Shown here piece by piece: positions 40,267 to 63,515 of a stretch of 64,000 bases of DNA. The DNA is from Amia ocellicauda (taxonomy: Eukaryota; Chordata; Actinopteri; Amiiformes; Amiidae): positions 1 through 64,000 of the forward strand of contig NW_027102714.1 in assembly GCF_036373705.1 (NCBI RefSeq), given 5' to 3'. Under the pieces are notes generated by a model. That model was not told where the DNA came from, searched no databases, and saw nothing but the letters and a program-made list of their open reading frames with translations. The translations under genes were made by a program, and so were the position numbers. The first letter of the stretch is position 1. Every line of letters begins with the position of its first letter.

Positions 40267-40281
40267 GAGGGCGGTGTGTCG

Positions 40282-40308: not shown

Positions 40309-40344
40309 GCGCAACAATTCATTCATGGTTTAAAATTAAAGAGA

Positions 40345-41193: not shown

Positions 41194-41205
41194 GGGACTT
41201 TGAAC

Positions 41206-41728: not shown

Positions 41729-41768
41729 ACTTTGCGCATAGTGTGGGTCTGTGTGTTTATTTGGCAGA

Positions 41769-42860: not shown

Positions 42861-42906
42861 CAACATGCCCGCCGGTGTGAGGGGGTCATTACATTCGATA
42901 CTCAAG

Positions 42907-43662
42907 ATGGAATCAGGAGGCTTCTACGTGACTCTACCCAGTAACGCCTCTCTCGATATATACCCTAAAAATGAAATATCCAGTTACACGGTACAATTTG
43001 GAAAATCTATAGATCTAAGGGGGTCGTGGGAAGTGGGGTTGGCGGAAATACAGTATCCTTACACTTGGGCTGTTTTACAAGATAAGGATGCCACCTTCGC
43101 CATTTTTGACGATGTTAAAAAGAGTCAATGGACATTCACGATGCAAGGAGGTTATTATGACAATGTGGATACAATATTAGATGAGATGCATAAACAGTTC
43201 TCAGAAGGCACCCCCAACATCAAGCTATATTACAACCCTATTAAAAACAGAGTGTACAAGGTGTCAAAACCTGGTATTAGCATTCAAACCAAAGGACAAC
43301 TGGGGCGTATATTAGGGTTCTATTCTGACACAGAGAGCAGGTTCTCAGAAGTGGTGGCCCCCTTCCCGGCTGACATCAGGGGCGGCTTTTACACTCTTTA
43401 TGTGTATACGGATATCATAACACACCAGAGGGTCGGGGATAGCTATGTCCCCCTTTTGAGAAATGTACTTATTAAAGGTAAAAGCAATGACATGGTCACA
43501 ATTACTTATGACAAGCCACACTACGTACCAGTCTCAAAGACCCACTTTGACAACATCACGATCGAAGTAAAATCGGATCAGAATATCAACGTACCCTTCC
43601 GCTTCGGTAAAGTTATTGTCAAACTACATTTTCGACCCCTGAAACAGTGTGTACATTATTAA
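42907..43662 (+). CDS. Penton-like minor capsid protein
   Basis: About 251 residues from MESGGFYVTLPSN; an in-frame ATG at 42865 would add 14. In Polintons the gene here encodes the single jelly-roll protein of capsid vertices. Opening residues ASLDIYPKNEISSYTVQF match what I recall of adintovirus minor capsid proteins, and the body is rich in beta-prone segments. It lies between integrase and the basic virion protein, with a one-base gap to the next ATG. It appears whole. Confidence 0.85.
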   Translation: MESGGFYVTLPSNASLDIYPKNEISSYTVQFGKSIDLRGSWEVGLAEIQYPYTWAVLQDKDATFAIFDDVKKSQWTFTMQGGYYDNVDTILDEMHKQFSEGTPNIKLYYNPIKNRVYKVSKPGISIQTKGQLGRILGFYSDTESRFSEVVAPFPADIRGGFYTLYVYTDIITHQRVGDSYVPLLRNVLIKGKSNDMVTITYDKPHYVPVSKTHFDNITIEVKSDQNINVPFRFGKVIVKLHFRPLKQCVHY

Positions 43663-43663
43663 A

Positions 43664-44152
43664 ATGGCTACCTCGAGGGGTTATGTAGATCCTAGCGCCT
43701 ATGTGGATTATTACAAGATGCAAGCCGGGAACGGCTTGCCCGGTTTTGTAGGAGCCCCCACAATGTATGGAGCCGGTCTAGGAGGACTCTTTCGTGGTCT
43801 CTTTAGAATGGCCGTACCCCTGCTTAAGAGAGGCTTTGCTATAGCCAGACCCCACTTGAAATCAGCGGCTAAAAATATTGTTAGTGACGTGTTCACCAAT
43901 GTTATGAACCGGGCAGCTAGCCATGAGCAGCAGGAGGGTTCGGGTCTCATGGTAATGGCGAGGAGGGGGGGTAAAAGAAGAAACAGTATGTGTCCACCAG
44001 GGCGACGAAGATCCGTGGCTAACAAAAAACGAAGAAGCTCTCATTCTCCAACATATCGTGGAAACACTCGGAGAAGGAAGCAGCACAAGAAAAAACCTGC
44101 AAAAAGAAAATCTCAAAGAAAGACAAATAGAGCCTCAGGATACATCTTTTAA
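43664..44152 (+). CDS. Basic virion protein, adenovirus pVI/pX-like
   Basis: 162 residues from MATSRGYVDPSAYVDYY. A glycine-rich, amphipathic or membrane-active middle (GAGLGGLFRGLFRMAVPLL, then KSAAKNIVSDVFTNVM) resembles adenovirus pVI and related core peptides. The last ~60 residues are packed with K and R (KKRRSSHS, TRRRKQHKKKPAKRK), fit for binding packaged DNA. The GLG and LVM-type sites are possible protease targets; that is inference. It is one base after the minor capsid stop and two before the major capsid ATG. It appears whole. Confidence 0.8.
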   Translation: MATSRGYVDPSAYVDYYKMQAGNGLPGFVGAPTMYGAGLGGLFRGLFRMAVPLLKRGFAIARPHLKSAAKNIVSDVFTNVMNRAASHEQQEGSGLMVMARRGGKRRNSMCPPGRRRSVANKKRRSSHSPTYRGNTRRRKQHKKKPAKRKSQRKTNRASGYIF

Positions 44153-44154
44153 AA

Positions 44155-45462
44155 ATGTCTTTTGTCCACAGTCTATCGGAAGAATGCGTCAAATCAGAAC
44201 TGGATCTGTTTACAGTTCCATACACTCAAACGAGTATAGATAAGAGCATATATGTAGAGATACCCCCTCTTTCCGCAATTTCAGATACGGCCCCTCTGGA
44301 GTTTTTTATAGCTGGCAATGGCGAGGATTATATTGATTTGAATAACACATTTATTTTAATGAACTGTAAAGTGACTGATGAGGATGGCGATGCAATCGAG
44401 AAGACGGCCAACGCTGGGGTCATCAATTACCCGGTGGCCACCATGTTTTCACAGGTGGATGTGACCCTGGGAGATCGGCTCATTAGTCAAAGCAGCAATA
44501 CTTACCCCTATAGGGCCATGATGGAGTGTATCCTTAATTATAGTGAGGAGACCCTAAGCAAACAGTTCAGCCCCGGCCTTTTCTTCAAAGACACCCCGGA
44601 AGCTATGGACGACCAGGATCCAGAGGGACTCAATAAGGGTTTGCAAAAAAGAACGGCCTTTTCAACAGAAGGGAGGACCTTTGAGCTAATGGGACATATT
44701 CATGCACACATATTTTTCCAAGAAAAACTCATGCTCAACGGGGTAGACATTAAAATTAAAATGATCCGTAGTAAAAGTGCTTTTTGTCTGATGACCCCTG
44801 ATACTGAAAAATATAAACTGACCATATTATCGGCCTCGCTGTTTGTGAAAAAAGTATCCGTCTCCCCGGCGGTTAAACTAGGACATGCGCAGGCTTTAAT
44901 GACGGCAAACGCCAAGTACCCGATCGAAAGAGTCTATATGAAAGTCCACAGTATCCCCGCAGGGACACGGGTGATGAACCAGGAAAATCTGTTTCTAGGC
45001 CAGCTCCCAAAACAGGTTATTATAGGTCTCGTGGATAATGATGCATTTACCGGGGTTTACAACAAGAACCCCTTTAACTTTAAACATTATAACGCGGAAT
45101 TTATAGCACTGTACGTCGATGGTGTGCAGGTTCCATCCAGACCTTTTCAACCTGACTTTGAAAACGGCAACGCGGTTCGTGAATATTACAGTCTAGTACT
45201 GGCTACGGGTCGCCATCTCAAGGATCAACCTCTGCTGATCGATCGCCGGGAATACTGCAGCGGTTACACCCTGTACGGTTTCAACCTGACCCCTGACGAA
45301 GAGTGTGGACAACATTTTTCACTGATGAAGACGGGCAATATGCGTTTGGAGATGCGTTTCAAGCAGCCTCTACCACGCACTGTAAATATGGTCGTGTATG
45401 CTGTGTTTGACAACATTATTGAGGTGAATCAGAGGAGAAACGTTCCGTATGATTATTATTAA
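44155..45462 (+). CDS. Major capsid protein (double jelly-roll, hexon-like)
   Basis: 435 residues from MSFVHSLSEECVKSELD. Size, position and conserved stretches (PFNFKHYNAEFIALYVDG, AVREYYSLVLATGR, NVPYDYY at the end) fit the Polinton/adintovirus double jelly-roll capsid protein. Trimers of this protein would form the faces of an icosahedral shell. The protease ATG follows its stop by one base. The gene appears whole, which supports a young age for the element. Confidence 0.93.
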   Translation: MSFVHSLSEECVKSELDLFTVPYTQTSIDKSIYVEIPPLSAISDTAPLEFFIAGNGEDYIDLNNTFILMNCKVTDEDGDAIEKTANAGVINYPVATMFSQVDVTLGDRLISQSSNTYPYRAMMECILNYSEETLSKQFSPGLFFKDTPEAMDDQDPEGLNKGLQKRTAFSTEGRTFELMGHIHAHIFFQEKLMLNGVDIKIKMIRSKSAFCLMTPDTEKYKLTILSASLFVKKVSVSPAVKLGHAQALMTANAKYPIERVYMKVHSIPAGTRVMNQENLFLGQLPKQVIIGLVDNDAFTGVYNKNPFNFKHYNAEFIALYVDGVQVPSRPFQPDFENGNAVREYYSLVLATGRHLKDQPLLIDRREYCSGYTLYGFNLTPDEECGQHFSLMKTGNMRLEMRFKQPLPRTVNMVVYAVFDNIIEVNQRRNVPYDYY

Positions 45463-45463
45463 A

Positions 45464-46021
45464 ATGAACACCAGAGAGCTCAACCACATCATGAATGCCC
45501 TGGACGGCTCACGGAAAGTGTTTCAAGGAGTCTACGCCTGCGACCAGCTGCCTAAATTTAAGATCAAGAATTTACCTGCAATGTACATAATCAACACACA
45601 CCCTAAAAATATGCCTGGAGAACATTGGCTGGCTATTTATCTAAGGGAGGACCGCCGTGGGGAATTTTTTGATTCCTATGGAAACCCCCCGGATTTCAGA
45701 CCTTTCCCTCGGAAGATCAATAACTTTCTGCTCAACAACTGTCAAGAAACCATTTACAGCGGTCGTCAAGTACAAAGTCTTCAGACCTTCACTTGTGGTC
45801 AACACTGTGTGTTTTTCTTATATCATAGATCTAAAGGAAGGTCATACCCCGATATTATGTCCTTGTACAGTGAGGATTTAGGCCAAAATGATAAAAAAGT
45901 GGCAGAGTTTGTCAGGACACTGTGGACCCCCCCTTATAACACAATTACTTACGACCCTAGCCAGCCATGTATACAGATGGGGTGTTCTTGTGAGGATTTT
46001 AAAAGATGTCATGCGTGTTAA
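45464..46021 (+). CDS. Adenain-like cysteine protease
   Basis: 185 residues from MNTRELNHIM. The C5/C48-type catalytic set is visible: H54 in GEHWLAIYL, D70 in FFDSYG, Q113 and C115 in TCGQHCVFF. In adenoviruses and Polintons this enzyme trims capsid and core proteins during maturation. Adenain has His54 too, with Glu71 and Cys122. The C terminus is cysteine-rich (MGCSCEDFKRCHAC), which may bind metal or a cofactor. It is the last rightward gene before the convergent poly(A) region. It appears whole. Confidence 0.95.
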   Translation: MNTRELNHIMNALDGSRKVFQGVYACDQLPKFKIKNLPAMYIINTHPKNMPGEHWLAIYLREDRRGEFFDSYGNPPDFRPFPRKINNFLLNNCQETIYSGRQVQSLQTFTCGQHCVFFLYHRSKGRSYPDIMSLYSEDLGQNDKKVAEFVRTLWTPPYNTITYDPSQPCIQMGCSCEDFKRCHAC

Positions 46022-46199
46022 AGTGAAAAAATAATGAAAACAGCCTTTGAATCATTAGTTTTGTTTTTATTCAGCACAAATCTTATACAAAGCAGGGTTA
46101 TGTTATAAATAAATGTACAACATTTGAAAATAAAAAATAAAAATAAAAAAATGGTTTGTCGGTTCCTTATTTACAGGGGAGACAAATAAAAACATGAGA
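46022..46199. terminator. Convergent poly(A) region between the two gene blocks
   Basis: AT-rich spacer with AATAAA on the plus strand (around 46108, and several in the A-rich run at 46128-46150) and its inverse TTTATT near 46065 for the minus strand. Both gene blocks end here, as expected for back-to-back 3' ends. Confidence 0.7.
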
Positions 46200-46943
46200 C
46201 TAATAAGCTTCCCAACGATGGATAGATCCTGAGGAGGGTTGCTCAACACGGTCAGAGTAATGAGATATCGGCGTCAGATCAGTCACCACCTCTTTACACA
46301 GACGGATTTTTTGTCGCGTTTCCTGGTTAGGGACTGTTGATTGGGGTATGTTCAGACAGGCCATCGCCTGTAGGAAAGCATTCCAGCCTACAGGTCGGCG
46401 ACTATCGGGTACCTTATTAGTGCTAGTGACACTCTTCAACAAATCAAACATGTGTGAACCTTTGAGCAGTTGTCCTTTAAAAACAAATTCACCCTGTTCA
46501 TTCCAAGTCGTTACCCGCGGTTTCTGAACCATTTTGTGCAGAATATATTCTGCATGTCTTTTGCTTCTGGCCGGCATGTTTCTCAAAACATCCGTTACAA
46601 CATCTCCCTCTGAACTCTCAACAGGTTCGGGCACCGCAACATCTTTATCAACCGTACCCCCCGCATCAGTCCCAGAACCATTTTCTTGAGAGGCCATGGT
46701 TAAAGTTAAAATGTTTTGATCTTTTTCACCCTGTCTAACCAGACGGAGGTAGAGCTGTAACGTGTTGCTATACATCTGGGCTTTGGAATACTGATTTAAA
46801 TCGGCCCTGGCCAGTATAGCTTTCATTTCAGAGTCCAGGTTGTTTTCGGCCGTTTGTCTAATGGGCTCTGGCCCGACAACATTTTTTCTCAGTTTCTCAA
46901 GCTGCTCCTGAGGGATCAAAAACATTTTCTGAGCATATTCCAT
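46200..46943 (-). CDS. Conserved Polinton protein of unknown role
   Basis: 247 residues from MEYAQKMFLIPQEQLEKL. I recall similar N termini (MEYA.KM.LVP) in vertebrate Polinton and adintovirus proteins, but know no function. A helical N-terminal part (1-80) is followed by an acidic, disordered linker (90-115). A C-terminal domain with GEFVFKGQLLKGSHMFDLL and PVGWNAFLQAMACLNIP comes last. It is first in the leftward block counted from the centre, two bases after the next gene's stop. A virion-associated role is a guess from its neighbours. It appears whole. Confidence 0.7.
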   Translation of the reverse strand: MEYAQKMFLIPQEQLEKLRKNVVGPEPIRQTAENNLDSEMKAILARADLNQYSKAQMYSNTLQLYLRLVRQGEKDQNILTLTMASQENGSGTDAGGTVDKDVAVPEPVESSEGDVVTDVLRNMPARSKRHAEYILHKMVQKPRVTTWNEQGEFVFKGQLLKGSHMFDLLKSVTSTNKVPDSRRPVGWNAFLQAMACLNIPQSTVPNQETRQKIRLCKEVVTDLTPISHYSDRVEQPSSGSIHRWEAY

Positions 46944-46945
46944 TA

Positions 46946-47281
46946 TTAACCCACTCTGGAAGCTAGAAGACTGGTTAGGAAAGGCACGGCTATGCTCAAC
47001 AGCGGTCCTATAAAACCTCCGGTTTGATTAATCTTCTTTCTTTTTCTTTTAATAGAATACTTCTTATTAGCGATGATCTTGATAACCGCTTTTTGTTTTT
47101 TGAGTTTAGAATGTTGAGAAGGGGTTAGGGGTATATTACCGCGTAAGATGTTAAAAGCTATTTTACACAGGGTCTCGATCAAATCCGAGGGGGCCCCTGC
47201 CAGCACAGCTTTCCTATGGCACGGGCTCCCCTCAAATAACATTTGCAAAAGCGGCAGATTTCTTTTAATCCGAACAGACAT
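46946..47281 (-). CDS. Small basic/hydrophobic Polinton virion-type protein
   Basis: 111 residues from MSVRIKRNLPLLQML. The first 70 residues look helical. They are followed by a strongly basic segment (NKKYSIKRKRKKINQ), then GGFIGPLLSIAVPFLTSLLA, a glycine-led hydrophobic tail. This basic-then-GGF-hydrophobic plan is common in small Polinton proteins between the ATPase and the element centre, compared by some to adenovirus core or membrane-lytic peptides. Exact function unknown to me. It is packed tightly between neighbours and appears whole. Confidence 0.7.
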   Translation of the reverse strand: MSVRIKRNLPLLQMLFEGSPCHRKAVLAGAPSDLIETLCKIAFNILRGNIPLTPSQHSKLKKQKAVIKIIANKKYSIKRKRKKINQTGGFIGPLLSIAVPFLTSLLASRVG

Positions 47282-47287
47282 TCTTAT

Positions 47288-47959
47288 TTATTTCCTTTTC
47301 TTTAGCACATACACTGCCGGCCAATCGGGCGGGCACAAACCTGTTCTGAGGCGAAAGTCTTCTGGGGTTTGTGCTTTTAAGTCCACAATCAAGTACCCGT
47401 AGGGTTTTTTGGTGGCATCCTCAAATGCCTCCAAAAAGAATTTGGTCTGGTTAGGGTACATTTGACGAGCCAAGACGGTGACCTGTAGTTTATCTCTGGG
47501 GTTTTTAAAAATAATTATATAATTGGCATTTAAATTAATAGTGCGGCTTTTTTTACCTTGAAAAAATAGATTTTGAACTAAATAAATAATACTTAAATTC
47601 CTATGATGAGTGTACTTTGTGAAAGCTTTTTCCACTTCACTGTTGTCACCGGCCTGCTCCATCAGGTCATCAAGGATCACTAGATTAGTTTGTCCGGGCG
47701 GGAACAGGTCATCGTCACACAACGAGGCGGGGAGACCTTGCACAAATTTCAGATTTTTTTTTTTTTATGCCAAATCATCGTAGAGAGGTTGCCAGCAAGA
47801 GTAACACCACACTATGTTGTCAAGAGCTTGGGACACGGTTGCGTCCACATCTTCTATGATGTTCTTTATAAGATAGCTCTTACCCGAATTGGAGGGACCG
47901 GCTATAATACAGGAGAAAGGGTGTTGAAGTCTGTTATCAAAACCACCGCTAATATCCAT
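47288..47959 (-). pseudogene. Packaging ATPase region (FtsK/HerA type)
   Basis: Polinton ATPases pump the genome into the capsid. The start codon region reads MDISGGFDNRLQHPF, the Walker A loop is AGPSNSGKSYL, and a Walker B-like LVILDDLMEQ follows further on. Its first bases overlap the end of the polymerase gene by 11 (ATGGATATTAG). The region seems to carry about one break, so this copy may be inactive; a sequencing error is also possible. Size and motif order fit the family. Confidence 0.85.
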
Positions 47960-50900
47960 AAGGCAGAGTGGTATAATCAGTCTTCAACACTCTTTTATTG
48001 TACACCACCCTGAACCGTTTGTTTAGTGATCTATTTTCCAATGTGTACCCCTTTTTATTGCGATAGATCTGATTTCCGGCTGTAATAATCTCGCGAGGAG
48101 GCGCGTCTTTCTCGGTTACAAAACTTTGTACCAGGGTCGTCAGAGACTTGATGTTAATGAGCTTGTTGTTACAATGGTTCAGAGTGAAACCCTTAACTTT
48201 CATACAGGTCTTACCCGCAGCCGTTCTGTATGCGTAAGTCTTAGGACCCCCTGAAACAAACTCAACTATGTGGTCCTGAGGATCTAGCTCACTCGTTAAC
48301 TCCCCAAGGTAGTCCCCGAGGGGAGGGACCCAATCCCCTGGCCTGGTGACAAAGATTACAGAGTCAGTATCATGATAGAGCGTGCGTTCCTGCAGCTGAT
48401 CCATTAAGTTGTACAGTTCAAGCCGGGCGTAAGCCGTGGTAAAAACCGCTATGAAAACATTAACGTTTCCCTGTTTGGTGGGGAAATCTTTAGGGGCCCT
48501 CCACTGGACCTGTGCCACGTGGTCATTTAAGAATTGAAAGTGTGATACTGCATGTTGTTTGGAAAACATAAATTCTATAAACTGTTCAGGGGTTTTAATC
48601 AAGGTTGTGTTTAGACGGTTATTTCTTTCCCCAAACTTACCCCACAGACTGTTTAAAATCAGTTTGGACATTTGTCTCTTGGCGGGGTTTACAGTTATGT
48701 TCCCCGGCTCTAGACGGATCCCTTCCTTTTCAAAATATTGCTGAACGTACCGCTCTTTGGCAGCGGAGTCAACACACCATGAGGGATAGCCCGATGCCTC
48801 CTGTTTCCCTTTCAGATGGGTCATAATGTACTCAGCAAAAAGAGTATCAGATTTTTCAGAAAAATGCCAAACCTCATACACCTTACCGACTCTGTAACCT
48901 TTCTCCACCGCCTTGTCAAGCTCAATGCTACACCAGACACCCGTCAGCGCTCTCTCGTCATCACTGTGCAGACAAGAGGTATTTTGATTTTCAGTTTCCA
49001 CACACGTTCTACACAGAGGGAACATCAATTTTCCCGAACACCTGTAAGGCAACACGGGTAAGAACAGCTCGCGAGGAGGGTACATGCTGACTTTGATCAA
49101 ACCAAAGTACTGTCCGATTTCGAGAAAGTCACGATAAACAATGGTTGGATGCCCCACCGGGTACATTTTGGTCTTGTTGACATAAGGGTACAGACTGGTG
49201 AAATCATAGTAATCTACTCTCTCACCCTCCTTTACCTCATAATGTAAACAGAGGGCGTTGGTACGACCCCCAAATAACGCACCCCTGGGCTCTAGACGTT
49301 CAGGAAAGTCCAAGGTTTCCATAAACCGTTGTACCCCCACATCCTGTTGCTTCAGGGTCGTCCACGCGTGTTCCCAAATCACCAGTACATTCAAACCATA
49401 GGTGTTTTTTAAAGTTTCAATTCGTTCCTGGAAATCATAGTACATATCACCGCAGAGTTTTTGTGTTACGGGGTTAAAGGTGTTTGGGTCGAAGCACTGA
49501 GGACAGCCCTGGTAAATACAACCAGCAAACTCATAAGCGGTACGCCGCCCGGACACGTCGCTAAAACCGTCTAAGTAGTAAGGACCCATTTTGACTTCCC
49601 CTTGATTTAAAGCATGTCTGATGAAGATGTTATCCCGGGCACTCAGATATTCCAGCCACTGTATGGAGACAGTCGAAAAGTTCTTTTGTCTAGCACGATA
49701 GTTGTCAGAAGTGGTGACCGCTATAGTGTTTTTCTGCAAGAAATTGGATCGATACATTTTCATGCAGAGAGACGCTATGGTCACACTTTGCAAAGGGTCG
49801 AGACCCGACGTGTTGATAACCTCGGCGCGGAAACGCAAACAGGCTTCTTTAAGGATCACCACATCATTTTTACAATAAGCGGCCATCTCTTCTCGGAAAT
49901 CAAAAACACCTCCCTTAACCGTATTGTACCATTTAAAGAATTCCTCCCTCTCATGAGACATCATAGTATCAACCCCATAATAAGAGGCGGGCGGGTAGGA
50001 CCCTCGATAATTTTGAGTGTCCTTAGTATTAAAAAAATGGCAGAACCAACCTTTCTTCTGAGCCTCAAAACCCAGAGCTTTAGGCAAAGCGCTCAATTTC
50101 ATGGGGAGGAAATTTAACGAGTCTATGTAACGTTGGTTGAAAGCCTCGTCGGTGAAACACATGATCTTGCTACCCTGAGCTATTATTTTTGGGGTCACCC
50201 CATTTTCCACCAGATACTTCATCAATATGTAAGAATCATAACCCTTAGCATTGTGGGCAATAAATGTGTAATTGAGGTATTTTGGACTAGCTAGCTGACC
50301 ACTCACAATCCAACATGTCAATACAGTGTATATAATTAGCAACATGGACCCCGTTTTCTTGCCGGCATTCAAAATCAAAAACGACATACCGGTTGTGCGG
50401 CGGCTCCTTTTTAACCGGCTGAATAAAGCACTGGTGTTCAGACCCCGGGGTTAAATCCGCATTACAGATCCTACATCTCGGTTCCAGACATTTGTGTGGT
50501 TTAACCTCATGAAAACGGTACTGGAGGCAACACTGTGGGCAATATTTAGTTTGATCACAATAACTCCGTTTTTTAACCCCCTCAGCAGCGGCCCTCTGCA
50601 CCTTATGTTCGGAAAAACAGAACGCGGAGAGACAAATCCTTAAGCAATCTTTACATCGAATGGTAGGGGCCAAACCCTTACGACATTGCGGATTGAAACA
50701 GACGTTACAGTAACCGTCACAGCGGTGCTTAAGCTTATCATTGAAGGCCTTATAACACCAATGACAAACATACGAACAACCCAAAAATGCCGTCAAACTC
50801 TTTATTCCAAAGTAATGACTATCACTTAGGAAGAGAAACAGTGTCTGTGTATGGGTTTCAGGATGTGTCTGAAATTTCACAAATACTTCCTTTACCTCAC

Positions 50901-52149
50901 AACGGTACCACACAACAATTTTTAAAGACAACAACTCCTCAAACATGGCAATGTCTGAAAAGGCAACCATCTGTTGAGAGTTTAAGCCGGCCCTCTGATG
51001 AAGCATTAAAGCCTCTTGCATAGCTTGGGGTTCAGGCATGTCGGGGGTGAGTAGTTTTATTAAACTGTAAGCAAAACAGAGCTTATTGTCACCATTGGAA
51101 CTCACCACTAATTGCCTGAGCTTGTTCCTAATTATGTCGTTCTTCAAGCATTTCGACAGTCTTCTAAGCGCCCCACCCTCAGGGTTACGAAACACATTCA
51201 TTACCAGAGACAGACTTTCATCAGCTAAGATGGATGCGTTACTTTGCAATAACGCTTCGATTTTAGCCAGAAATTCATCAACATCTAAATTATCTCCACT
51301 CAGCATTACAGATAGGTTGCTAAACAAATCATCCCCTCTGAGTTCTAACTGTACAACATCTCGAGGTCTGACCCTTTCAGCAACCTGTTCAAGCATGTTT
51401 TGCAAGGCCTCGTGTATGTTGACAAATATTTCTGCATAATTGTCACAATTTAAAAGTTCTGCAAAATTAAAACGCTGAATCATTTCAAAATTGTTATAGG
51501 CCGGTCTATCTATAATCACGGGATCACTGGTACTCTTGGACACATCATCATTTTGAACAAAGCCTTCAACCCCTACATTCTCACAGAGCATGTCATCCAC
51601 AGCCTTATCAGTCTCAGAACCCTCCACATTCCGAACACCCCCACCGCTGACATCTACAAAACCCCCTTTTTGAGGAGGCTCATTTAAAGCCTGTAAAAGT
51701 CCTTCAAAGATATCCACCCGGTTAATGTCAAGACCCTCCTCTATAGTGACGGCTGCTTCTGCCGCCGTACTGTGTTCTAATGGTCTCAAATCATTTATAA
51801 TAGGGGCAGAATTTGGTCGGGGTAGCGTCTCCAAAGCCTCCACCATTTCAAACAAATCGGGGTGAACTAGGGGTTGAACCTCTATAAGCGCTACCGTTGG
51901 GAGGTGGTTATTTAGATCATTGACCATCTGTAACAGGTCGGGGTTCACCGGTAAGTCTGGTAATTCACATTCTATCGGTGGTGATTGGGGGTTATTTAAA
52001 TCATTTATCATTTGTAATAGTTCCTGGTTCATTGGGACATCAGAGGAGTTCACAACAGGGCCGGGGGTGTTCTCTCGGGAAGGTCTTTTTGGGGCCCTAA
52101 CTTGTTCATAATCCTTTAGTTTGTGAGTTCTTTTACCAAGTCCGGACAT
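47949..52149 (-). pseudogene. Protein-primed family B DNA polymerase region
   Basis: The largest gene of the element, starting at ATG 52149 (MSGLGKRTHKLKDYEQ). The N-terminal part has three short repeats around LLQMINDLNN. Next comes the Polinton N-terminal domain with NKLCFAYSL and SHYFGIKSL, OTU-peptidase-like, then a cysteine-rich zinc-binding stretch. Exonuclease motifs DFE, NAKGYDSY and YCKNDVV and polymerase motifs DFTSLYP, NSLWGKFG and YHDTDS are all present. It would copy the linear genome from a protein primer. About one break is apparent, so this copy may not make a full enzyme; misassembly at that point is possible. Confidence 0.93.
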
Positions 52150-52170
52150 TTTTTTTTTTTTTTTTTTTTT
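52150..52170 (-). promoter_or_regulatory. 21-base A tract directly before the polymerase ATG
   Basis: On the minus strand an uninterrupted run of A leads straight into ATG at 52149. It could be a leader feature or a simple homopolymer. The 30-odd bases beyond it up to the next gene's stop hold nothing else. Confidence 0.4.
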
Positions 52171-52213
52171 CCAACAACCCACAATAGTAAGGCGTTTTGT
52201 ATCTATTAAAACA

Positions 52214-54244
52214 TTAAATACGGTACAATTCGTTAGTAAGGGTATTAATAAGGGTGTTTTGACTCTCTATCACAAGGTTTTGCCCCACTAACACAAGTCT
52301 TTGATTTAGTAACAAGGTATGTAGCAACTCATGCCGACCTTCAGGAAGTAGCTCCGGGGGATGGTGTCCTGGCTCAGCTGCAAAGGATGGTCGCTCCGGT
52401 AAATCTCGGTCGAAGGAGGCAGGGAGCGAGCGTATACTCACGGACGGAGACCAAGAAGGCCTTTGCGGTGACACCCTGGCCAATCGCGGTGTACTGTTCA
52501 GCGTTTCTGTAGCCAAGAAACGGGGCTGGGGGGACGATGTTGAAACCAGTCCGTCGTTGGGTGGTGTGTCAACCCTGACTGACGGCGACCCCTGAGGTTG
52601 TTGGTTGCCTGTATTTGTTCCGCCCGACAATGCGGCGGGCTGAATCTGGATTGTTGAATTACCCCCAGAAGGCTGTGGCCTGAGTAGATGTTGGGGGGTC
52701 TCCAAGACCACCGTGGGGGATCCTCTCGGTGATCTCTCCGGGGAAGATGTTTGATCCCACTTAGACGGGGTAATTGTCCTCAATAGCTCATCCACAGAAT
52801 GACTATCCCAAGAGTCTTGGGAAGAATAAAAATATACATTACATTTACATCTTTAAACGGCGACAGAAATCAAACTTAAAACAACATGTCCAGGACCTTC
52901 AAAACCTTTAGCTTTTTTAGACCTTTGAAAATAGGCTTAGACATTCACTACAACGCCTTATTATTTACAGACAATATATTTATTAGGACTTGATAATAAA
53001 TGTAAAACAGAGAAGCCTCTGTAAATAAACTGTTTCTTAAATGTAATATTGTTAATAAAACACTTTTTATACACACACACACCACATTTCATTTTTAAAC
53101 GAACCTTCCAAGTGTAAACGCTTCCTGATCCCGGGACTTCCTGTTTCACAAACGTTTTCACGATCTGTTTAAATATTAAATACAATGAACACCTTCAAGC
53201 CTTTTCCTACAGCCACTTTAAAACAGAAGTATAATTGCGGGAGATAAGCCAAACAACTTACTAAAACCTTTCGGACAGCTTTACTTCCTAACCAGACGGT
53301 CGGGCAATCGGTCATTTCTAAACACATGCCCCAGAAACAAGCCTAGACCTGTCCGGACTTCTAAAGATCTTTCCCAGAACCCCCAAGACCTACAGGAAAT
53401 GGACACCCCTCGCTTAAATATTAGCCCTCAACGGGCAAACAAAACCCTTTTAAAAACATTAAAGTTTGAAAGATCTTACTTACCTCCAAAGAATAATCGT
53501 TTCTTATGTTTTTCAGCTGATTTAGCTTTTTGCACTTCTGTGAAGGTAAGAGACATGTTTAACCTTTAACCACCCCTCTTTATAAAAAGCTTTAACCTCT
53601 TACAAGCGGCAGATATATACTCACCGCTATCAGATACAGGGGCTGACGGCCTTTCAGATTCTTGAAAGGTTACGGTTCTCGAAGGTAAAACGAAACAATC
53701 CCTCGATGTGGAAGGCCTTTCGTTGTCTCGAACCACGTTTCTTAATACTGTTAGAAAGGATATTTTTTTAAATTAACAAAACGGGCCTCAAACATCTTAC
53801 CGAAACGTTATACAAACAAACAGGGGTTTAGTTCTTACCCGGTCGGCAGACAGCCTGTCTAGGGACAACCACTTCTCTTGGTTGATCCTCGGAGACATTA
53901 ATCACAGGCCTTTCGATAGTTTCTGTGTAATTAAAGAGACCGCCATTAATATATATTAAAACGTTTTCATAACTCTAATGAGCCGCTTCAAAACACAACC
54001 ACACACCCATACATAAGAACCCTTGAGCGCAAACACAAAAATCTTACCGTCGTTGTTCCAGATGATCTCCTCAGCGTTGGGAATTAACTCCTGTTGACTG
54101 GCTGAAAAATAATTTTACAGAACTTAAAACAGATGTTATAACCTTATTTACAATACATGCCCACGCTCTGAGTCAATGAAAATAATCTGAAGACTTACCT
54201 AAAAACTCGTTTAAATCGAAGTCGTTGATGTTGTTTCCGGACAT
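52214..54244 (-). CDS. Six-exon spliced Polinton gene, not recognised
   Basis: Exons: 54199-54244 (ATG), 54048-54101, 53839-53922, 53625-53747, 53484-53537 and 52214-52815 (stop). Each intron starts GTAAG or GTGAG and ends AG after a pyrimidine run; every intron is phase 1, so internal exons are whole multiples of three. Introns are 87-125 bases except the last (668). Total coding length is divisible by three, about 320 codons. Product, by exon: an acidic/hydrophobic start (DFDLNEFL), two ERP-bearing exons, a lysine-rich exon (KSAEKHKKR), then a long Ser/Pro-rich exon ending in leucine-rich helices. This suggests a regulator, but I recognise no family. A TATA-like box lies 68 bp upstream. Confidence 0.72.
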
Positions 54245-54311
54245 TGTTGATCTTTAGGCTTAAATCGAAAGGTCAGTATGAGTCTGTCGAGCTGAAGACC
54301 AGACCTTCATA

Positions 54312-54318
54312 CTTATAC
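54312..54318 (-). promoter_or_regulatory. TATA-like box of the spliced right-end gene
   Basis: TATAAGT on the minus strand, 68 bp before the ATG at 54244, the same distance as the TATA-like box of the first left-end gene. Confidence 0.5.
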
Positions 54319-55246
54319 TGATGGCCGGATGCCGGATCTGCTTGTAAGGCATTGTTCTGGGCTGGCCTTTGTGCCGTCCTGTTATCAATTAACATATCAA
54401 AACCAACCAATAAAATGACCCTGCATCAATTTCAAATAGAAACCAAGATGGCGACGATCTCTCTCCTCTCTACTCTAAACTTTTATTAGAACCTTTTGGT
54501 CTCTCAAAAAAACATTTTTAAGCATCAAGACCTATAGTCAATAAACACTAAGAATATTTCAGGCCTTTATACGCGCTAAAAAACAACCTAAGCCAAGAAA
54601 ATAACTATAAAGATCTAAAATAAGTAGCGCTTTTACAGTGATTTTTTTTTTTTTTTTTTTTTTTTAATAGCGATGCTTTGTTTGGTATTAAACAAGTCAC
54701 AAACTACTCAGAACAGCATTTATCCCCACAAAAGAGATATTTGGGTTTATTTTACAAAGCTTATAAATTATATAGTTTAAAAGTATTCTGAATGTTTTGA
54801 GACCACACGCCATGCCTACGTTTGTCTGAGCCCACCCCCGTCCCCCGTGGTGTGAGTGATTTAGCCTTGAGTGTTGTGATCTATTTAGCATTGAGTGATC
54901 AGTTGTTTTTATTTTTTAAATGATTCCTTATCATCAGGGATTGAGCCTGCTAAAATACCTTAAAAACATATCCTTATCTTAAGTCTAACTCTTATGAGCT
55001 TTAAGACCCTAGAATGTATTTAAGTAAAACGAATGAACACATTATGTGTGAGATAAAATATAACCACAGCTTTTATTTTTTTTATTTTTTATTTATTTTT
55101 TTATATACAAATACAATTAACCTATACCCACAAACACCCACACACACACACACCCTCTTTTTTTTAATTTTATTTTTAATTAAATTTGAGGGGAGAGACA
55201 GAGCCATATACATTGGGGTTAACATAAGTACCCTATGCAAAACAGG
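54319..55246. other. Polinton right-end non-coding stretch
   Basis: No gene recognised. Contains a long T tract (about 54642-54665), an AT-rich low-complexity run near 55072-55110, and a CACA run near 55140. The first copy (1190-2109) has the same content with different T-tract lengths. Confidence 0.6.
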
Positions 55247-55541
55247 CATTGTTAGGACCTGTGACCATTACAGACAACAGAACTTGTTGATCTTATAAAA
55301 TGATTGGGCGAGAGAGAGAGATATAGAGACAGACAGAGACAGAGCCAGTGTGAATATGATAAACGCACTATTCAAAATGGCATTGTTAAGACCTGGGACC
55401 ATTACAGACAACAGAACTTGTTGATCTTATAAAATGCTTGGGCGAGAGAGACAGAGAGAGAGAGACAGACAGTGACAGAGACAGAGACAGTGTGAATATG
55501 ATAAACGCACTATTCAAAATGGCATTGTTAAGACCTGGGCC
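55247..55541. repeat. GA-rich tandem repeat near the right end
   Basis: Units start at 55247 (134 bp), 55381 (142 bp) and a partial at 55523. Each begins CATTGTTA(A/G)GACCTG and holds TTATAAAATG and GAGA/GACA runs. Its position next to the terminal repeat may matter for replication or transcription; that is a guess. Confidence 0.75.
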
Positions 55542-55639
55542 CCTTACATGTATATTTAAAAAAGACCCCCAACCGCTACAGGAAGAGCCGACCCATTCAC
55601 ACTCTACAGTTGACCAACAAGAACAACAAGAACAACCGG

Positions 55640-55820
55640 TTATGGGGGGCCTTGTTGTTCAGGGTTTTAGGGGTGTACACTTTCTGGCGGATATGACGTA
55701 GGAATAATTAAGGAAATAACTCTAAAATCACGCCCCCCAATTATGACGTAGGAATATTAATAAGCTTAGGGCATACGTCATAACAAAATAGGCCGCGCCC
55801 AAAAAACCCTACTATCTACT
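55640..55820. repeat. Polinton right terminal inverted repeat
   Basis: Inverse of 39255-39435 with two mismatches. Ends CTATCTACT followed by the CACATC duplication. Same three TGACGTA motifs and GC boxes. Confidence 0.95.
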
Positions 55821-55826
55821 CACATC
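55821..55826. repeat. Target-site duplication, right (CACATC)
   Basis: Repeats 39249-39254; the unit sequence AGTCATTCCGCC resumes directly after it. Confidence 0.92.
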
Positions 55827-57656
55827 AGTCATTCCGCCCTGGGCCGGCCCTGACCAATTTGATGCCCTAGGCAAGATTTTAGCTGGTCCCCTTGCATCGC
55901 AGCCAATTCCACCACCGATCATTGTGTTCATACACTTACACAGAAACTGCATAGCTTCATGTCTTAGATTTTCTTTATGTTTGAAACAAGAAAAAAACAC
56001 ACAAAATAAAAACAGTATGCAAGAAACAAGTGACAAAACGAATTATGAATACAATATAAATAAGTATTGCACGAAAAAACTATATTACCGACACCATAGT
56101 GCAAGATGCATAATGTAGCAGTGTTCTACAGCCTTACCGCCTTGCCTTTCTTGCAGCAAACAAGTGACATAAAACGAATTATAAATAAGTGGATGTTTCC
56201 TGCAGCACACTTGAAAGAAAAGGTATATTTCTCAGAATTATGTTATAGGTAATGGAGGTTGATGAAAGAGTTAAATAGCTGATCGATCAAAAGGTGTGAT
56301 CGTTGTGGGGCATCGGTAAGAATGCACAATTCTCATTCATTCCAAACAGTGTCCCTTTACTGCATCACTAGCAATGGTATTTTGGTATTTGTTTTGTGTG
56401 TTTTTTATTGCTTTTTGTTTTGTTTTATTAATTCACTTTAAACCTCTTATATTATCACATTATTCCCATTAAAATCACGTTTGTTTACTTTGAATGTCCC
56501 GCCCCACTTCACGGAAATGCACGAGTTTTATTTACGATTGATTGATTTAAATATACACATGGCTAATCACGCATTCATGAGAGTACCCGCTTATTCGCCA
56601 GGTTCTACGAAATTCAATAATTGACCATGAGGAGCACCTGTTAGGCTGGAGATAAAATGCTCCCGGGGTGGAGCTGGGGGGGACGGGATTGCAGAGCAAC
56701 GGGAACGAAACGTGGAGCCAAAGGCGAACGAAGGACTTGATGGACAAGTAACGGAAAGGGCTAAGAGACCCAGAGGAGAGCTGAGGCGACCTCTGCAACG
56801 CTAGCGAGAGTATCCAGAGAAGGGATAGCGTACAGGCTTTTTGAACTACAGTAGTGTTTCAAAGGATAACAACAAACAACCTGTTTTTTTTTTTTTTTTT
56901 ACTCGGCCATTGTTTTCTTGGACTGTACATGGACATTGTAATTTCTTTGTATTGCCAAACCCGGACCAGAGCAGAAGCTGAATTTTTGTCGGAGCCCCTC
57001 ATTAATTTGTACTAGGACACGTGGACTATTGCCTGCCCCATTCCAGCTCCTGGTGCTGCCGGAGGAGACCAACAGAACCCTCCACGAATGCATTTTTTAG
57101 TTTGAACTTTTGTCTTTTTAACATAAAGAGGAAGTCTGATGGATTTTATATTAGAGATTTGTAATCCAGTTAATTGTATACCTGTCTTGTGTGGTCTGTG
57201 GTGTGCTCCTGGCTTGAGATTCCCCAATTTAAATAACCTAAATCGAAGGGAGAATTGAGAGGTAGTAAATGCAAAATGGGCATATTTGGGCAATCGACAA
57301 CCTCCCAATGGGTCCTAGCGGCTGTAGACAACCGCTAGGTGGTGTAGTCGTGCTTCCATAAGTTTTACCCCCCAGTGGTACTGTATAACTTCCACTCTGT
57401 GACACATCCTAGATTTTAATAGCGACAAGATGTGAAGTCATAGTGAAGAGCTTGGGAAGGTGCGGTCATGCCTGCTTCATCAATGACGGGAGCTTTGGGG
57501 AGACGGGAGGCAGTCACATTACCTTCCTGAGAGCAGTAACTGCCGAACCAACACACATTACTTGTGTGTGCCAAATACTTCTGTTTTATTAGTACCTAAT
57601 TTTTCAGCACCAGTATTTAACTTTGCAGATTGTTGGAAAAAAACTGTACAGGTATT

Positions 57657-57739
57657 CCCTGCTAACACACAACATTGCCAATAACATTGTAGCAATATCA
57701 TTTATATTGCTACAGCATTGAGGCAATGTGCTAGCAGGG
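57657..57739. repeat. 83-bp foldback repeat (unit E)
   Basis: Same palindrome as at 4512-4594. Confidence 0.6.
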
Positions 57740-57990
57740 TTGTTGTACTTTGGAATCGGTTCATGCTTCACGATTGGTTAATTGCCTATTTTTTTTTTGC
57801 CTTCATAAACAATTCGTGGATCGACTTTGCTCCCTTTTTCTTGGGATTGTGCGTCTTGTAGGCAGTCCATAGGTTGTCCCTATATTAATTTATTCATGAA
57901 ATTCCAACTGAAATAGCGACAGTTCTACAGCTATTTCAAACCGGAAGTTTGAATCGCTCCTGATTCAGGAAAAAGTTCTTCATTTACACC

Positions 57991-59022
57991 GTCTCGTTCT
58001 GTCCGTCCCTCCCCTCCTCAGCCTTGGATCTCTTCTGTTCTCCGCTCGACCTGATCCAGTCTGCGCACCACTGAGCACAAGTGGAAGAGATCCAAACTCC
58101 CAACGACCCTCGCACTCTACCACTCTCTACTGCCCACATTCCCCTCCTCGCTCACCTCAGTCTTACTTCCAGTCATTCTTTGAATCCACTGTCCACAACC
58201 CCTGCAAGCTTTACTCCACCTTCTCTCTCATCTCCCCCCTCCTCCCTCATCTCATCTCACCTCATCATTTTGCCTCATTCTTCTACAAGATCACAGACAT
58301 CCACAAGCTCTTCAACAGTCTCCTCTCCACTCCCACCCTGCCCAAGTCTCCCACCGATCAAGCTTCCATTTCTTCATTCTCTCCTCTCTCAGACTCTGAA
58401 CTTTCCTCTCTCCTCCTAGGTCACAAACCCATAATATGTCCCCTGGACCCTCTCTCTACTCGCCTCCTGCAAACGTCTGCTCCATTTCAACTCCCCTTCT
58501 TCACCTCCCTCCTCAACTCCTCACTCCTCTCTGGCTGTTTCCCCTCTTGCATTTAAACAAGCTGCGGTCATCCCACTCCTCAAGAAACCTACCCTTGACC
58601 CCACCTCTCCTCAGAGGCACCTGTCTCTGCCCTGTCGCCCTACTCCCCTTCCTCTCAAAGACCCTCGAGCGTGCGGTCCACTGTCAGCTCTCTGCATTCC
58701 TTTCCCATCTCTCACTTCTTGATCCTCTGCAATCCGCCTTCCAAACACCGCTCACACCACTGAGACTGCTGTCCTGGCAGTCACTGACTCCCTCAACTGT
58801 GCTCGGGCAGCCTCCCTCTCCTCAATCCTCATCCTCCTTGGTCTCTCTGCAACATTTGACACCGTCGATCACTCCATCCTCCTCTCCTGCCTCGCTGACC
58901 TTGGAATCTCTGGGACTGCTCTCACTTGCTTCTCCTCCTACCTCAACGACCGGACCTATCAAGTGGCGAGCTTCCTCATCCACCCCTCAACCTCTCCTCA
59001 CAGGCATAACCCCCGGGTTTAG
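57991..59022 (+). mobile_element. L2 reverse transcriptase remnant (unit E)
   Basis: Long form as in units A and D; frames shift as there. Confidence 0.75.
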
Positions 59023-61312
59023 CTATCCTCCCGATGGGTCACACTTCGGTAACTACCTTTTTTACTTTCATGGGGCCCTGAAATCCTGGCTGCGCCCCTG
59101 GTCATGAAAGCTGTAATGTCTGGTATCAAAATACATTACTGGCTTTCGGCTTACACACGTCATTTCAACCCACTTGCTCAAGCAGACCGAGTAAACGTTT
59201 ACTCGAGGTATACGGTCACACAGAAGGAGCATCCCAAGAACACCAGTAAATGGCGTAGAAATTTTGAAAACATGCACAATTTTCCACGATCTAAGCCCAC
59301 AGTTTACATGCAAAATCTAATGTCTGAGATGATGGTATCCATGTAACATTCCCGAAATGGACGCATTTTAAAAGTGCAAGGTAACGGTCTGGTCCATTTA
59401 TTGTGGGTTTCAAGGTAAAGTACATTGCTGATGGACGTTTCATGGATAATGCGGATCAGTGGTTTCCTTTATCATTATGCTCTCTAAATTGTTGTGGGTC
59501 TGTTGTACACTGTTCAGTACTGTACATCGTGTTTTAATCCTAACTTGATAAAACACTTCGATTCATGGCTTTGTAGCCCCACCAGTGATGTAAAAAAACA
59601 CTCGGTAAGATCATTAAAACAAAGTATTAAACAAGGCGCAATGCACAAGACAGTCCTTTGCCCTGTGCAGTGCTGCGGGTAAACAACTCGTCTCTAGTGC
59701 AATAAACTAAGACCATGTAAACCCGAGAGGGAGAGGGGCATTTAATCTGTGACTCGAGCATATTGTCTCCAGTGAGGTCAATACATGCGTCAGGGATATG
59801 TATGCTAAATGTAATGTAAATATGATGGATATAATGTATATTGTGGTGGAGTTTATAAAGATAATGTCAGGGGAACTTTAGTGATGTTCTGTGTTTTCTA
59901 AATTCCAAGCAGTGGGACTTTAAGTCATAACTTTGTGAGGAATTTACATGTCTTTATAAATTATATATCATTATAAAGTAATAATCCAGCTCACTTTGCT
60001 AGCTAGCCTACTGCCAGTTGCCATCCAAATGATGATAATGATCAGCTAGTAGTTAAGTACTGCAGTAGTTTGCCAGTTGTCAGCTAATGATTTTTCATAG
60101 TATTGTATTATTTAAATTCAGTTTCTTGTGCACTATAGTATTTTCAGTATTGAGTATTTTTGGTGTGGATGTTATTTTACCTAAACAGTTTATTAGTTAT
60201 TGCTCTGATTTCAATATGCATAGTGCACTATTTACATTTGTATTGATTATTACATCAATTTCTTCAACAAGTACAGTGAATGTTAAAGTGCAATACATGT
60301 TCTGTGATGTGCATTATTTAATTGTTTGTGTTTATTTTAGTTTTAACTAAACATTCTCTATACGCCATAAACATGGGCACCACTAAAATGTTTTTCATCG
60401 AGAGGGGGGATGGTTCTGGGGCTACTATCAAATCTCGCATATGGCCCCCAAATGGCTAGGGCCGGCTCTGGACATCACACATTACATAGGATGGGACTGA
60501 CGTTGGATGGGACTTTTCGTGACTTAAATCAAGTAACAAGTTACTAGTACACACATAGCCTCTAAGTGTACTGAGTAATGATACTCTCTCTTTCGTTCAT
60601 TCGTTCCTTAGTATAATTACCTTTAGTAGTAGTAGTACTGGCCACTACTCGGAAGGCAGCGATGCGCACCAATAGATCACGAAAGCTTTCTCATAGTTTT
60701 GTGTTTTAGATAATGGTTCAATACGGACTCAATCCCCTTTCATGGACATGGCAGGGAACTTGCAGTTAGAACTAAGGAGTCTAATAAGACTTGGTGGTAC
60801 GCAGAACTGAAGTGCCAAGTGACAGGCTATTACTTTCATTGCACATCGCATTGTCTTCTCGCAGGGAGCGAATTGGGGAAATGTTGGATTCACGGCATCA
60901 TGTAGAAAGACTGAATGGTTTAGTTACAGAAAAAGATAAAAAAGATAGTGACCTTTCTTACTAGCTGAACTAACCTGCATAAAATTAAGAAGATACAGAC
61001 ATTTTCATGCAATTATTTCAAGTTACAGTCTGCTGCTCAGACACAGTTTGGCGCACAGATGCAACTATCATCAACTCAATTATAAACATATATCTAGACA
61101 GACAGAGAGACAGACATGGACTACATATCGTGCACATAGTATGAAATCATGCTGGTATATGTAGGCTTGTAGATGATTGTTAAGAGGCCTATTTGGAAAC
61201 ATACGAAATGAGATATTACCATAATGAAGTCATGATACATGAAGGAAATGTTTTTCATGTTGGCAAAAGTACCCTGTCAAAATGAAAATGAATGAGAGAA
61301 TACTAAAACAAA

Positions 61313-61364
61313 GGGCTCGTCCGGGATTTGAACCCTTTGAATCATACCCCTAGACCAACGAGCC
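61313..61364 (-). pseudogene. tRNA-Pro pseudogene (unit E)
   Basis: Same 52-base form lacking the anticodon arm. Confidence 0.85.
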
Positions 61365-62086
61365 ACATAGCACAGGTTTCTGTGAAAACTAGTTAACATC
61401 GGTGCCACGTAGAGAGTTGTGCGCTCCTCTATTTGAACACTTCCTTCTTCAAACATTGCATGAGTGTCTGACTGCCGCCATCTAGCGGTGCTGACTGACC
61501 GATGGCTCGGGTATCTTGGATGTTGTTAAATGACATAACTGTCCGCCCAAGACACTGATGACCAAGGGTCATAGTTTTCCCCTGTAATAATAACAACAAT
61601 AGTAATTGGAGTGAATGGAAGTGGCATTTCTATTTCTCCTTACTTTAGCCGTCATCGTCGCCAACATTGTTGTTGGTGAGCATGGAGAGGAGTGTATTAG
61701 CTTTTAAAGTATATTCAAGCAATGAACACGTCAAATAAATGTAATACCGAATACTTTTGCACGCAAGTGCACATGTATGTTACAGCGCTTCTGGGAGCAC
61801 GGCCCACGTGAAGCAAGAGGGCGCAGTAAAGGTCTGCGAGTCAAGTGTGATGTGGGTATCCTGCAGCAGGGAGAGGAACCTTTGTTTTTCTACAGACGAA
61901 GCTGGTGCTGTGGGATACTAGTGTAAGGCCATTTATTCGTCATCTGTTCATGCGCAACGGTTCACCAGAAGTGTGTTAGTGAAAACAGCGGTAAGTGCAG
62001 GCTTAGTAGGGTCGCAATAGCTTGAATGGTGTCGAACTCCCCCGAAGCATCACAAATGTGATGGCGGAAGCCTAGAAAGAAAACGT

Positions 62087-62158
62087 TGCGTTGGCCGGGA
62101 ATCGAACCCGGGTCAACTGCTTGGAAGGCAGCTATGCTCACCACTATACCACCAACGC
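62087..62158 (-). tRNA. trnG-UCC: tRNA-Gly (anticodon UCC), unit E
   Basis: Identical to the unit B and C genes, with the TTTT terminator downstream. Confidence 0.96.
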
Positions 62159-62695
62159 CCAAAAAGTCTCTCATTCCATGACTTTTGATGCATTTCAGAT
62201 CATTCATCTGACTAGATACATGCGAATAATCACAGCCTACAGTGTAAAGCTTCTGATTACAGACAGGGCGTGTTAAGTGTGCTAAGTAACTTGCTAAATT
62301 CACTAACAAACAGTCGCTGCTCTTACTACAAAACAGGTGCAAGATATATCATTCTTAGCTAAACAAACCACGTAAACAATCAATGTAACTCTTAACTAAA
62401 CTAGGAAACGCGAGAGAAAAAGGCGATACTTAGCTGCGGCGACTTGAGCGACTTCTCAGCTGGCTTGCCCGAGTGTCCAGATGCATATGTGGAAATACTT
62501 CTATACAAACCATGAACATAGATTCTCGATAGATGAATACTGTTTATTTAAAGGTCAGTTTTTATTTAGCGCATAGTTTATTGAATTTACCCACCAAGGT
62601 GGAACACGGACAATGATGTATTTGATTGACAGTGTAACTTGGACTGTTGGAGTAACTTGGACACCCATTGGAATGGAAAAACAAACTCGAGAAAA

Positions 62696-62697
<2 letters not shown>

Positions 62698-62739
<42 letters not shown>
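62698..62739. repeat. GT microsatellite, longest copy
   Basis: (GT)n of 42 bases, against 26-28 in units A, B and C. Confidence 0.9.
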
Positions 62740-62740
<1 letters not shown>

Positions 62741-63146
62741 ACCTGCTGGTAGTGATGCATTTACATAACCTACAGACTATTTGGGCTGATTGTTCCTGGT
62801 GTATTAATGAAACTTTTCAAAGCGGTGGCTTACGTAGATGACATCACAGTCATTGTTAAGAATGGCAAGGATGTACCTTACCTTAAATGACTGTCAGAAA
62901 TGAATTGAGTTTCTTCAGTGGTTAATGGCTTTTACTGGGGGAACTAGGTAGAAAGCAAGCCACTGTCTCTAGCCACATTTTGGACAAATGGACAAAACTA
63001 GATGGATTTAAAAATAGACGGATAGACAGTCGGATGGCGTCTGTCTACAATATTTTAAATGATAATAGTATATGTAGTATATGCATGTGTATTATCAACT
63101 AATCTTTACAGAAAAGGGGTAATACCATAATAAAATGCTGATGAGA

Positions 63147-63420
63147 GGAGAAGAGATCTTATTCACTGGACAAATACATGATTTCGACAATTGTCGTACA
63201 TCTTGACGGCACTTAGCTTTACTTTTCACAATGTATGACTGCACTTACTGTACTTAACTGTATACATTGGAAGTTGTAAAATGTATTATCTTGAATTGCT
63301 TTGTTTAATGTAAATTTGAATTTGTAATGTTTGATGCCTTGTACTTAACTGTATTCTTGCACTTATGTTGCAAGTCGCCCTGCATAAGGGCGTCTGCCAA
63401 GAAATAAAAATAATAATAAT
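63147..63420 (+). mobile_element. L2 3' end (unit E)
   Basis: Same tail as in unit C, with only the left 84-bp repeat (63063-63146). Confidence 0.75.
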
Positions 63421-63471
63421 GTGTTTTATACAATGAGAAATTAAGAAAACCGTAAAAGAAAGGCATTTTAA

Positions 63472-63515
63472 ACCAGGACCTCTCGCACTCTAAGAGAGAA
63501 TCATATCTCGAACAA
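63472..63515 (-). pseudogene. Second tRNA-Pro remnant (unit E)
   Basis: Same anticodon-arm remnant as at 10386-10430. Confidence 0.6.

Follow-up and report, generated by a model that had tools for sequence, protein, structure and literature searches.

A predicted seven-exon accessory gene with phase-1 introns in a Polinton of Amia ocellicauda

Can a Polinton of a vertebrate carry a gene that is read only through splicing? The question is raised by a leftward split gene near the right end of an element from Amia ocellicauda, located within a 64,000-nucleotide stretch of DNA (positions 1 to 64,000 of contig NW_027102714.1, assembly GCF_036373705.1) that was analysed as a whole and is hereafter called the window. 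A survey of 134 intact vertebrate Mavericks reports, in its passages on gene structure, genes without introns, says that this agrees with Kapitonov and Jurka 2006, and describes intact elements by eight conserved intronless ORFs (PMC8097293); a first-pass annotation of the window had likewise held that Polintons mostly carry intronless genes, a view with which these passages agree. The reading that we prefer, and to which we give a probability of about 0.8 on the sequence evidence laid out below, is that the locus is a genuine seven-exon accessory gene of the Polinton, transcribed and spliced by the host.

The element (Table 1) is bounded by terminal inverted repeats (TIRs) at 39255-39435 and 55640-55820, which are 181 nt long, 99% alike and 16.2 kb apart, and is flanked by a target-site duplication. 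Its Pfam matches comprise a family B DNA polymerase (DNA_pol_B_2, E 2.1e-47), whose frame is split in this copy, a retroviral-type integrase (rve, E 1.1e-12) joined to a chromo domain (E 1.1e-09), and an adenovirus-type cysteine protease (Peptidase_C5, E 3.2e-05; 24.1 bits, above the cutoff of 21.3). Further ORFs, without a Pfam match above cutoff, have the size and order of the major and minor capsid proteins and of a packaging ATPase, the last being named from what we take to be a Walker-type motif. The repeats, the duplication and the core genes bear out the initial placement of the split gene within a Polinton. Shared with the vertebrate Mavericks, as far as the survey's account of element architecture goes, are two gene modules on opposite strands that point towards the centre, TIRs, a 6-bp duplication, a size near the mean of 16.9 kb and the presence of extra genes outside the core (PMC8097293). 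The terminal motifs (AGT)2 and (AG)3 are absent, both ends of the element starting AGTAGATAGTAGGG; the corresponding passage of the survey gives these as common Maverick forms and names a further one, so that they are not strictly defining (PMC8097293).

The polymerase is spread over two ORFs (50287-52182 and 47949-50387) that overlap and differ in frame, for which a broken gene, a frameshifted gene and an assembly error are candidate readings, and the ATPase candidate (47288-47959) contains a stop in its reading frame near 47765, adjacent to an A run. The element thus looks damaged and this copy may be inactive; alternatively, the assembly may err at homopolymers. Unlike these two damaged genes, the split gene is open throughout; the other genes found in the element are open ORFs without evident introns. 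At 52147-52170, a run of 21 A directly precedes the ATG (52149) of the polymerase-side ORF, which, like the split gene, begins MSG; that polymerase-side ORF also has three similar short leucine/asparagine-rich motifs near its start. Upstream of the integrase, 39556-41712 holds three rightward accessory ORFs (236, 282 and 168 aa from the first ATG), all without a Pfam match above cutoff. The third (41206-41712) is predicted to be all-helical, at low confidence (model pLDDT 42.6); a Bcl-2-like guess for it was dropped, as its 30 weak matches among solved structures, the best to an annexin at E 0.29, included no Bcl-2. A PHROGs search with nine ORFs of the element gave a single match (E 0.048, function unknown), and an Rfam search of 39000-56000 gave none.

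Table 1. Positions, in window coordinates, of the element, the predicted exons and candidate signals of the split gene, and the duplicated right end
Feature	Positions	Strand	Remarks
Polinton/Maverick element	39255-55820	.	16.6 kb; TIRs with PolB, integrase plus chromo and adenovirus-type protease domains
Target-site duplication CACATC, left copy	39249-39254	.	6 bp abutting the element
Target-site duplication CACATC, right copy	55821-55826	.	6 bp abutting the element
ATTGG (inverted CCAAT) box, candidate	54407-54411	-	consensus match only
TATA-like box TATAAG	54312-54317	-	73 nt upstream of the ATG; candidate promoter, consensus match only
Exon 1	54244-54199	-	46 nt; ATG; only Met of the product
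Exon 2	54101-54048	-	54 nt; phase 1-1
Exon 3	53922-53839	-	84 nt; phase 1-1
Exon 4	53747-53625	-	123 nt; phase 1-1; residues present in P0001 and P0002
Exon 5	53537-53484	-	54 nt; phase 1-1; lysine-rich, KKRLF; residues present in P0001 and P0002
Exon 5b	53164-53105	-	60 nt; phase 1-1; residues present in P0001 and P0002, continuous with exons 5 and 6
Last exon (exon 6)	52815-52214	-	602 nt; TAA; residues present in P0001, and in P0002 minus the last six
AATAGA, weak candidate polyadenylation signal	52202-52207	-	just past the stop; consensus match only
Partial second copy of the element's right end (53130-55820)	1-2683	.	99.2% identical; same right flank

The split gene runs leftward from 54244 to 52214 in the accessory region, outside the core modules. 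Five GT-AG introns, all in phase 1, between open exons whose total length is a multiple of three had been described at first reading, and all of this is confirmed: the donors are GTAAGT, GTAAGA, GTAAGA, GTGAGT and GTAAGT, and the six exons sum to 963 nt, for a product of 320 aa. The six exons themselves stand, yet their number is probably one short, since both homologous Amia proteins (see below) contain the 20 residues of a further exon, 5b, that lies inside what had been read as a fifth intron of 668 nt and has the donor GTTCGT. With exon 5b included, the gene has seven exons, a product of 340 aa and six introns of 87-319 nt, all of them GT-AG and phase 1.

Because no exon after the first contains an in-frame Met, translation that starts at an ATG can reach the last exon only through splicing. 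In addition, the length of each of the five middle exons is divisible by three, and G is the final base of every exon but the last, so that skipping would be harmless to the frame: all 32 combinations of the middle exons stay open, giving 215 to 340 residues. The suggestion that symmetric phase-1 exons permit skipping without loss of frame thus held for every combination, and several isoforms are allowed by the sequence. Downstream of the gene, the first AATAAA or ATTAAA is found at 51061. Compared pairwise as mutual copies, the introns gave one pair of 15 below 0.05 (introns 1 and 5, 0.025), taken as chance, and the exons, compared as protein-level duplicates, gave none of 21.

Splice sites were scored with a simple matrix. 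The five best donors of 52600-54320 are exactly the five originally reported ones; the acceptor of exon 4 is weak (-0.6 bits), and so are the donor (5.1 bits) and acceptor (1.9 bits) of exon 5b. An anchored chain search admitted chains that start at an ATG, keep every exon open, use introns of 70-700 nt and join the last exon in its own frame; its top chain of five introns, at 74.5 bits, is the one originally proposed. The thresholds of this search had been reset post hoc so that the exon 4 acceptor passed, and the null sets were run under identical thresholds; with the initial ones, which shut out the acceptors of exons 4 and 5b, no chain was returned at all. Chains of five introns occurred in 51 of 1000 dinucleotide shuffles and in 6 of 280 pieces of host flank, which overlap, are partly tandem copies and are not independent, with maxima of 57.8 and 55.5 bits, respectively, and the best such chain kept to a single phase once among the shuffles and never among the host pieces. 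As none of the 1000 shuffles and none of the 280 host pieces reached the anchored score, the judgement that this combination is unlikely to arise by chance is upheld.

The best anchored chains of six and seven introns pick sites other than those of exon 5b. A scan without anchoring, at an acceptor threshold of 0 that shut out exon 4, is less telling, because long open frames yield chains too: the strand of the polymerase gene scored 53.4 bits against 52.8 for the strand of the split gene with three introns, 63.0 against 67.2 with four and 72.7 against 79.4 with five, and host sequence reached up to 68.1 bits with five. Moreover, the 79.4-bit chain at the split gene is not the proposed one, having an extra intron within the last exon. 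The case is carried by the anchored test, together with the shared phase and the two homologous proteins.

These proteins were the only homologues (2 of 2100 scored candidates) returned by a search of 5.8 billion proteins. Both are uncharacterized NCBI proteins of Amia ocellicauda, P0001 (LOC136721633, 295 aa) and P0002 (LOC136717369, 305 aa), and one of the two loci sits on a 23.6-Mb contig; a profile search found the same pair and nothing beyond Amia among the 8000 scored candidates with the most shared words. Both match the product from the first residue of exon 4 through exons 4, 5, 5b and 6 with no internal gap, and differ from it at 13 of 279 (P0001) and 36 of 273 residues (P0002). As P0001 and P0002 differ from each other at 39 of 273, the three copies diverge by up to 14% in protein. 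Scans of viral contigs with the PolB ORF, the alignment of the product, the major and minor capsid candidates, the integrase and the protease gave no confirmed locus.

The likeness of both proteins to the product starts exactly at the border between exons 3 and 4. Ahead of this point, P0001 is similar to intron 3 translated in a frame that meets a stop in the window; the first stretch of P0002 is unrelated. A gene predictor that missed exon 1 must seek a start elsewhere, because the later exons lack a Met, and the gene models behind P0001 and P0002 may be predictions without reads. Exons 4 to 6 are therefore backed by homologues that are known here as proteins only, and a copy that had lost its introns via mRNA would present an identical picture at the protein level. 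Exons 1 to 3 are not so backed and are read only from the window, in the split gene and its near-identical duplicate; searched on their own, their 64 residues gave two candidates among proteins, none at E <= 1.

Variable residues in the comparison of the three proteins number 41 of 272: 32 of the 127 at positions 167-293, a range delimited after inspection, and 9 of the other 145. Scan statistics give a milder result: the longest invariant run, of 41 residues (126-166), spans the junction of exons 5b and 6 and is reached by 159 of 5000 shuffles; together with the clustering of the differences, it suggests constraint on the protein. Codon use pooled over exons 1 to 5b is best in the proposed frame (0.056 vs -0.066 and -0.122), a result reached by 17 of 2000 host samples. 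Exon by exon the signal is weak, with values below zero for exons 4, 5b and 6 and higher ones in another frame for exons 5, 5b and 6. The partial second copy at the start of the window carries exons 1 to 5 and 35 nt of exon 5b with zero differences; since the mismatches amount to none over 396 exon bases and one over 719 intron bases, it is uninformative on selection. Over a longer stretch, 1-10264 matches 53130-63422 at 98.9%, and the shared right flank points to a segmental duplication that carried the Polinton insertion along. The host sequence also contains tandem units about 9.2 kb apart and 98-99% alike (5533-39116 and 58677-64000), and the window has Tc1-type transposase ORFs of 346 aa (21058-22098 and 30163-31203) and 261 aa (12148-12933).

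The encoded protein starts with an acidic stretch (7 acidic and 0 basic residues in the 33 of exons 1 and 2). Its KKRLF motif, which we liken to cyclin-docking motifs, is reached by 0 of 5000 shuffles, whereas RTVTF, likened by us to phosphatase-docking motifs, is at chance level (0.128 of shuffles); S/T-P sites number 12 against a shuffle mean of 6.2 (P ~0.01), and LxCxE is absent. All of these motifs were picked after seeing the sequence. Consistent with the first impression that the product resembles no known family, Pfam returned no family for it at E up to 1, NCBIfam none for P0001, and the solved structures only four matches, all to ETV6 fragments (E 0.14 to 0.83), which fall in the Ser/Pro-rich part and were taken as chance. 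A Pfam match of P0002 to Arteri_env (15.7 bits, below the cutoff of 27) was likewise taken as chance. The structural model of P0001, with a mean pLDDT of 41.4, is of low confidence save for a C-terminal helix (residues 254-294), from which we infer a product that is probably mostly disordered and has one C-terminal helix. A heptad (coiled-coil) test of this helix failed, its score being reached by 2093 of 10000 shuffles. An imperfect 21-nt tandem repeat at 52256-52304 (2.3 copies, 75% matches) encodes seven-residue units in the helix. Judging from the absence of a Pfam match, the acidic start, KKRLF, the S/T-P sites and the modelled helix, the protein could tentatively be seen, at somewhat less than even odds, as a nuclear regulator, acting early, that prepares host transcription or the cell cycle for replication of the element.

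Read as a genuine accessory gene, the locus would be transcribed leftward by host RNA polymerase II, starting from a TATA promoter that precedes the ATG by about 70 nt, and the host spliceosome would remove its six short introns. The resulting mRNA would encode a mostly disordered protein of 340 aa, acidic at its beginning, with a lysine-rich exon and a single C-terminal helix, and any subset of exons 2 to 5b could be skipped without a stop or an altered junction codon. Splicing would tie expression to the nucleus and allow isoforms, and the product might work like those of the spliced early genes of adenoviruses, with no kinship implied. Adenovirus early transcription units are spliced and nuclear, and encode disordered early regulators near the genome end that act through short interaction motifs; the same combination is suggested for the split gene, but its exon number and phase pattern differ, and its product has no Pfam match, a comparison that covers Pfam only and involves disordered proteins, which diverge fast. 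A broader possibility, which we consider rather unlikely, is that some vertebrate Polintons carry a combinatorial exon-cassette regulator, in which the host spliceosome joins symmetric phase-1 mini-exons in varying sets, so that one nuclear early protein exists as a family of isoforms. Genes of this type may have escaped notice, given the tendency of surveys of integrated viruses to presuppose that genes lack introns; in protist-integrated viruses, for example, gene calls presume the absence of introns, as put in the part of that study concerned with gene calling (PMC10120064).

Could the exon structure have another origin? Polintons replicate as DNA, which would let captured introns persist, so that a host cellular gene might have been taken up, introns included, as DNA cargo of the element. 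Diverse ORFs do occupy accessory regions at this position in most vertebrate Mavericks, according to the relevant section of the survey (PMC8097293), and a eukaryotic multi-exon structure is retained by KDM4-like genes within the endogenized giant viruses of Amoebidium, as summarised in the account of these insertions (PMC11244446). The searches described above speak against such a capture, which we regard as possible but doubtful: no cellular homologue and no Pfam or NCBIfam family emerged, only the two Amia proteins among the 2100 and 8000 scored candidates. An old capture may nevertheless have diverged past the reach of word-sharing searches, or one of the Amia proteins may itself be cellular. 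Retention of the gene by the host after insertion, with the host rather than the element maintaining the reading frames, would agree with the existence of two annotated loci, one of them on the 23.6-Mb contig, and with the different first stretch of P0002, such as a chimeric host transcript could have. This origin is improbable, as the gene still lies within TIRs and a target duplication, the 99% likeness of the repeats leaves little time, and the three gap-free copies differ by up to 14% in protein.

Two further explanations are both very improbable. A decayed ORF might mimic introns through insertions; large insertions in degraded Mavericks were indeed read as introns by Genewise, as noted in the methodological remarks of the survey (PMC8097293), and this element has two damaged core genes, but GT-AG at every border, the coincidence with the five best donors, the single phase and the 0 of 1000 shuffles are difficult to reconcile with decay, as are two homologous proteins that are gap-free over exons 4 to 6. 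Alternatively, the introns might serve less to produce isoforms than to shield the element from HUSH; in human cells, according to the sections of the work bearing on introns, HUSH represses long transcription units that lack introns, and introns give protection from it (PMC8770142). The same sections report that a short ACTB intron (0.4 kb) and a very short artificial one (0.13 kb) protected little or not at all, and state that evasion would need long non-coding introns (PMC8770142); those of the split gene are 87-319 nt long, and the remaining genes found in the element have no evident introns. An accessory gene of the Polinton that is spliced by the host remains the reading that we prefer.

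How does such a gene compare with other cases? It differs from the intact Mavericks surveyed, for which the passages on gene structure report no introns (PMC8097293), in having six predicted GT-AG introns. With the KDM4-like genes of Amoebidium it shares a multi-exon structure within an otherwise intron-poor integrated virus, but those genes, as described there, belong to an obvious cellular family (PMC11244446), and none was found for the split gene. Polinton-like viruses of protists also have introns inside a gene, which the passages on these elements identify as self-splicing group I introns (PMC12220804); those of the split gene are GT-AG, and 39000-56000 is free of Rfam matches. The Oncoid class of a survey of animal DNA viruses is, by its description there, defined solely by short linear motifs of interest (PMC11071296). 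Compared with that description only, the product resembles the class in its candidate motifs KKRLF and RTVTF, and differs in that LxCxE is absent, RTVTF is at chance level and the motifs were chosen post hoc. Among the titles and abstract openings of the literature matches listed, a scope outside which Starrett et al. 2021 and Kapitonov and Jurka 2006 fall, no spliced vertebrate Polinton gene was recognised. What would be new is thus a Polinton with a multi-intron accessory gene, multi-exon genes and self-splicing introns being already known from other integrated viruses.

In summary, if the gene is transcribed as read, a vertebrate Polinton would depend on the host spliceosome for one of its genes; this would place expression in the nucleus and be in keeping with introns surviving through a life cycle that involves DNA only. 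It would also expose a blind spot, as gene calling that excludes introns in integrated viruses would fragment or discard genes of this kind. The question is open to a direct test, since the accessory regions of further Polintons from fish can be annotated anew in a way that permits splicing.
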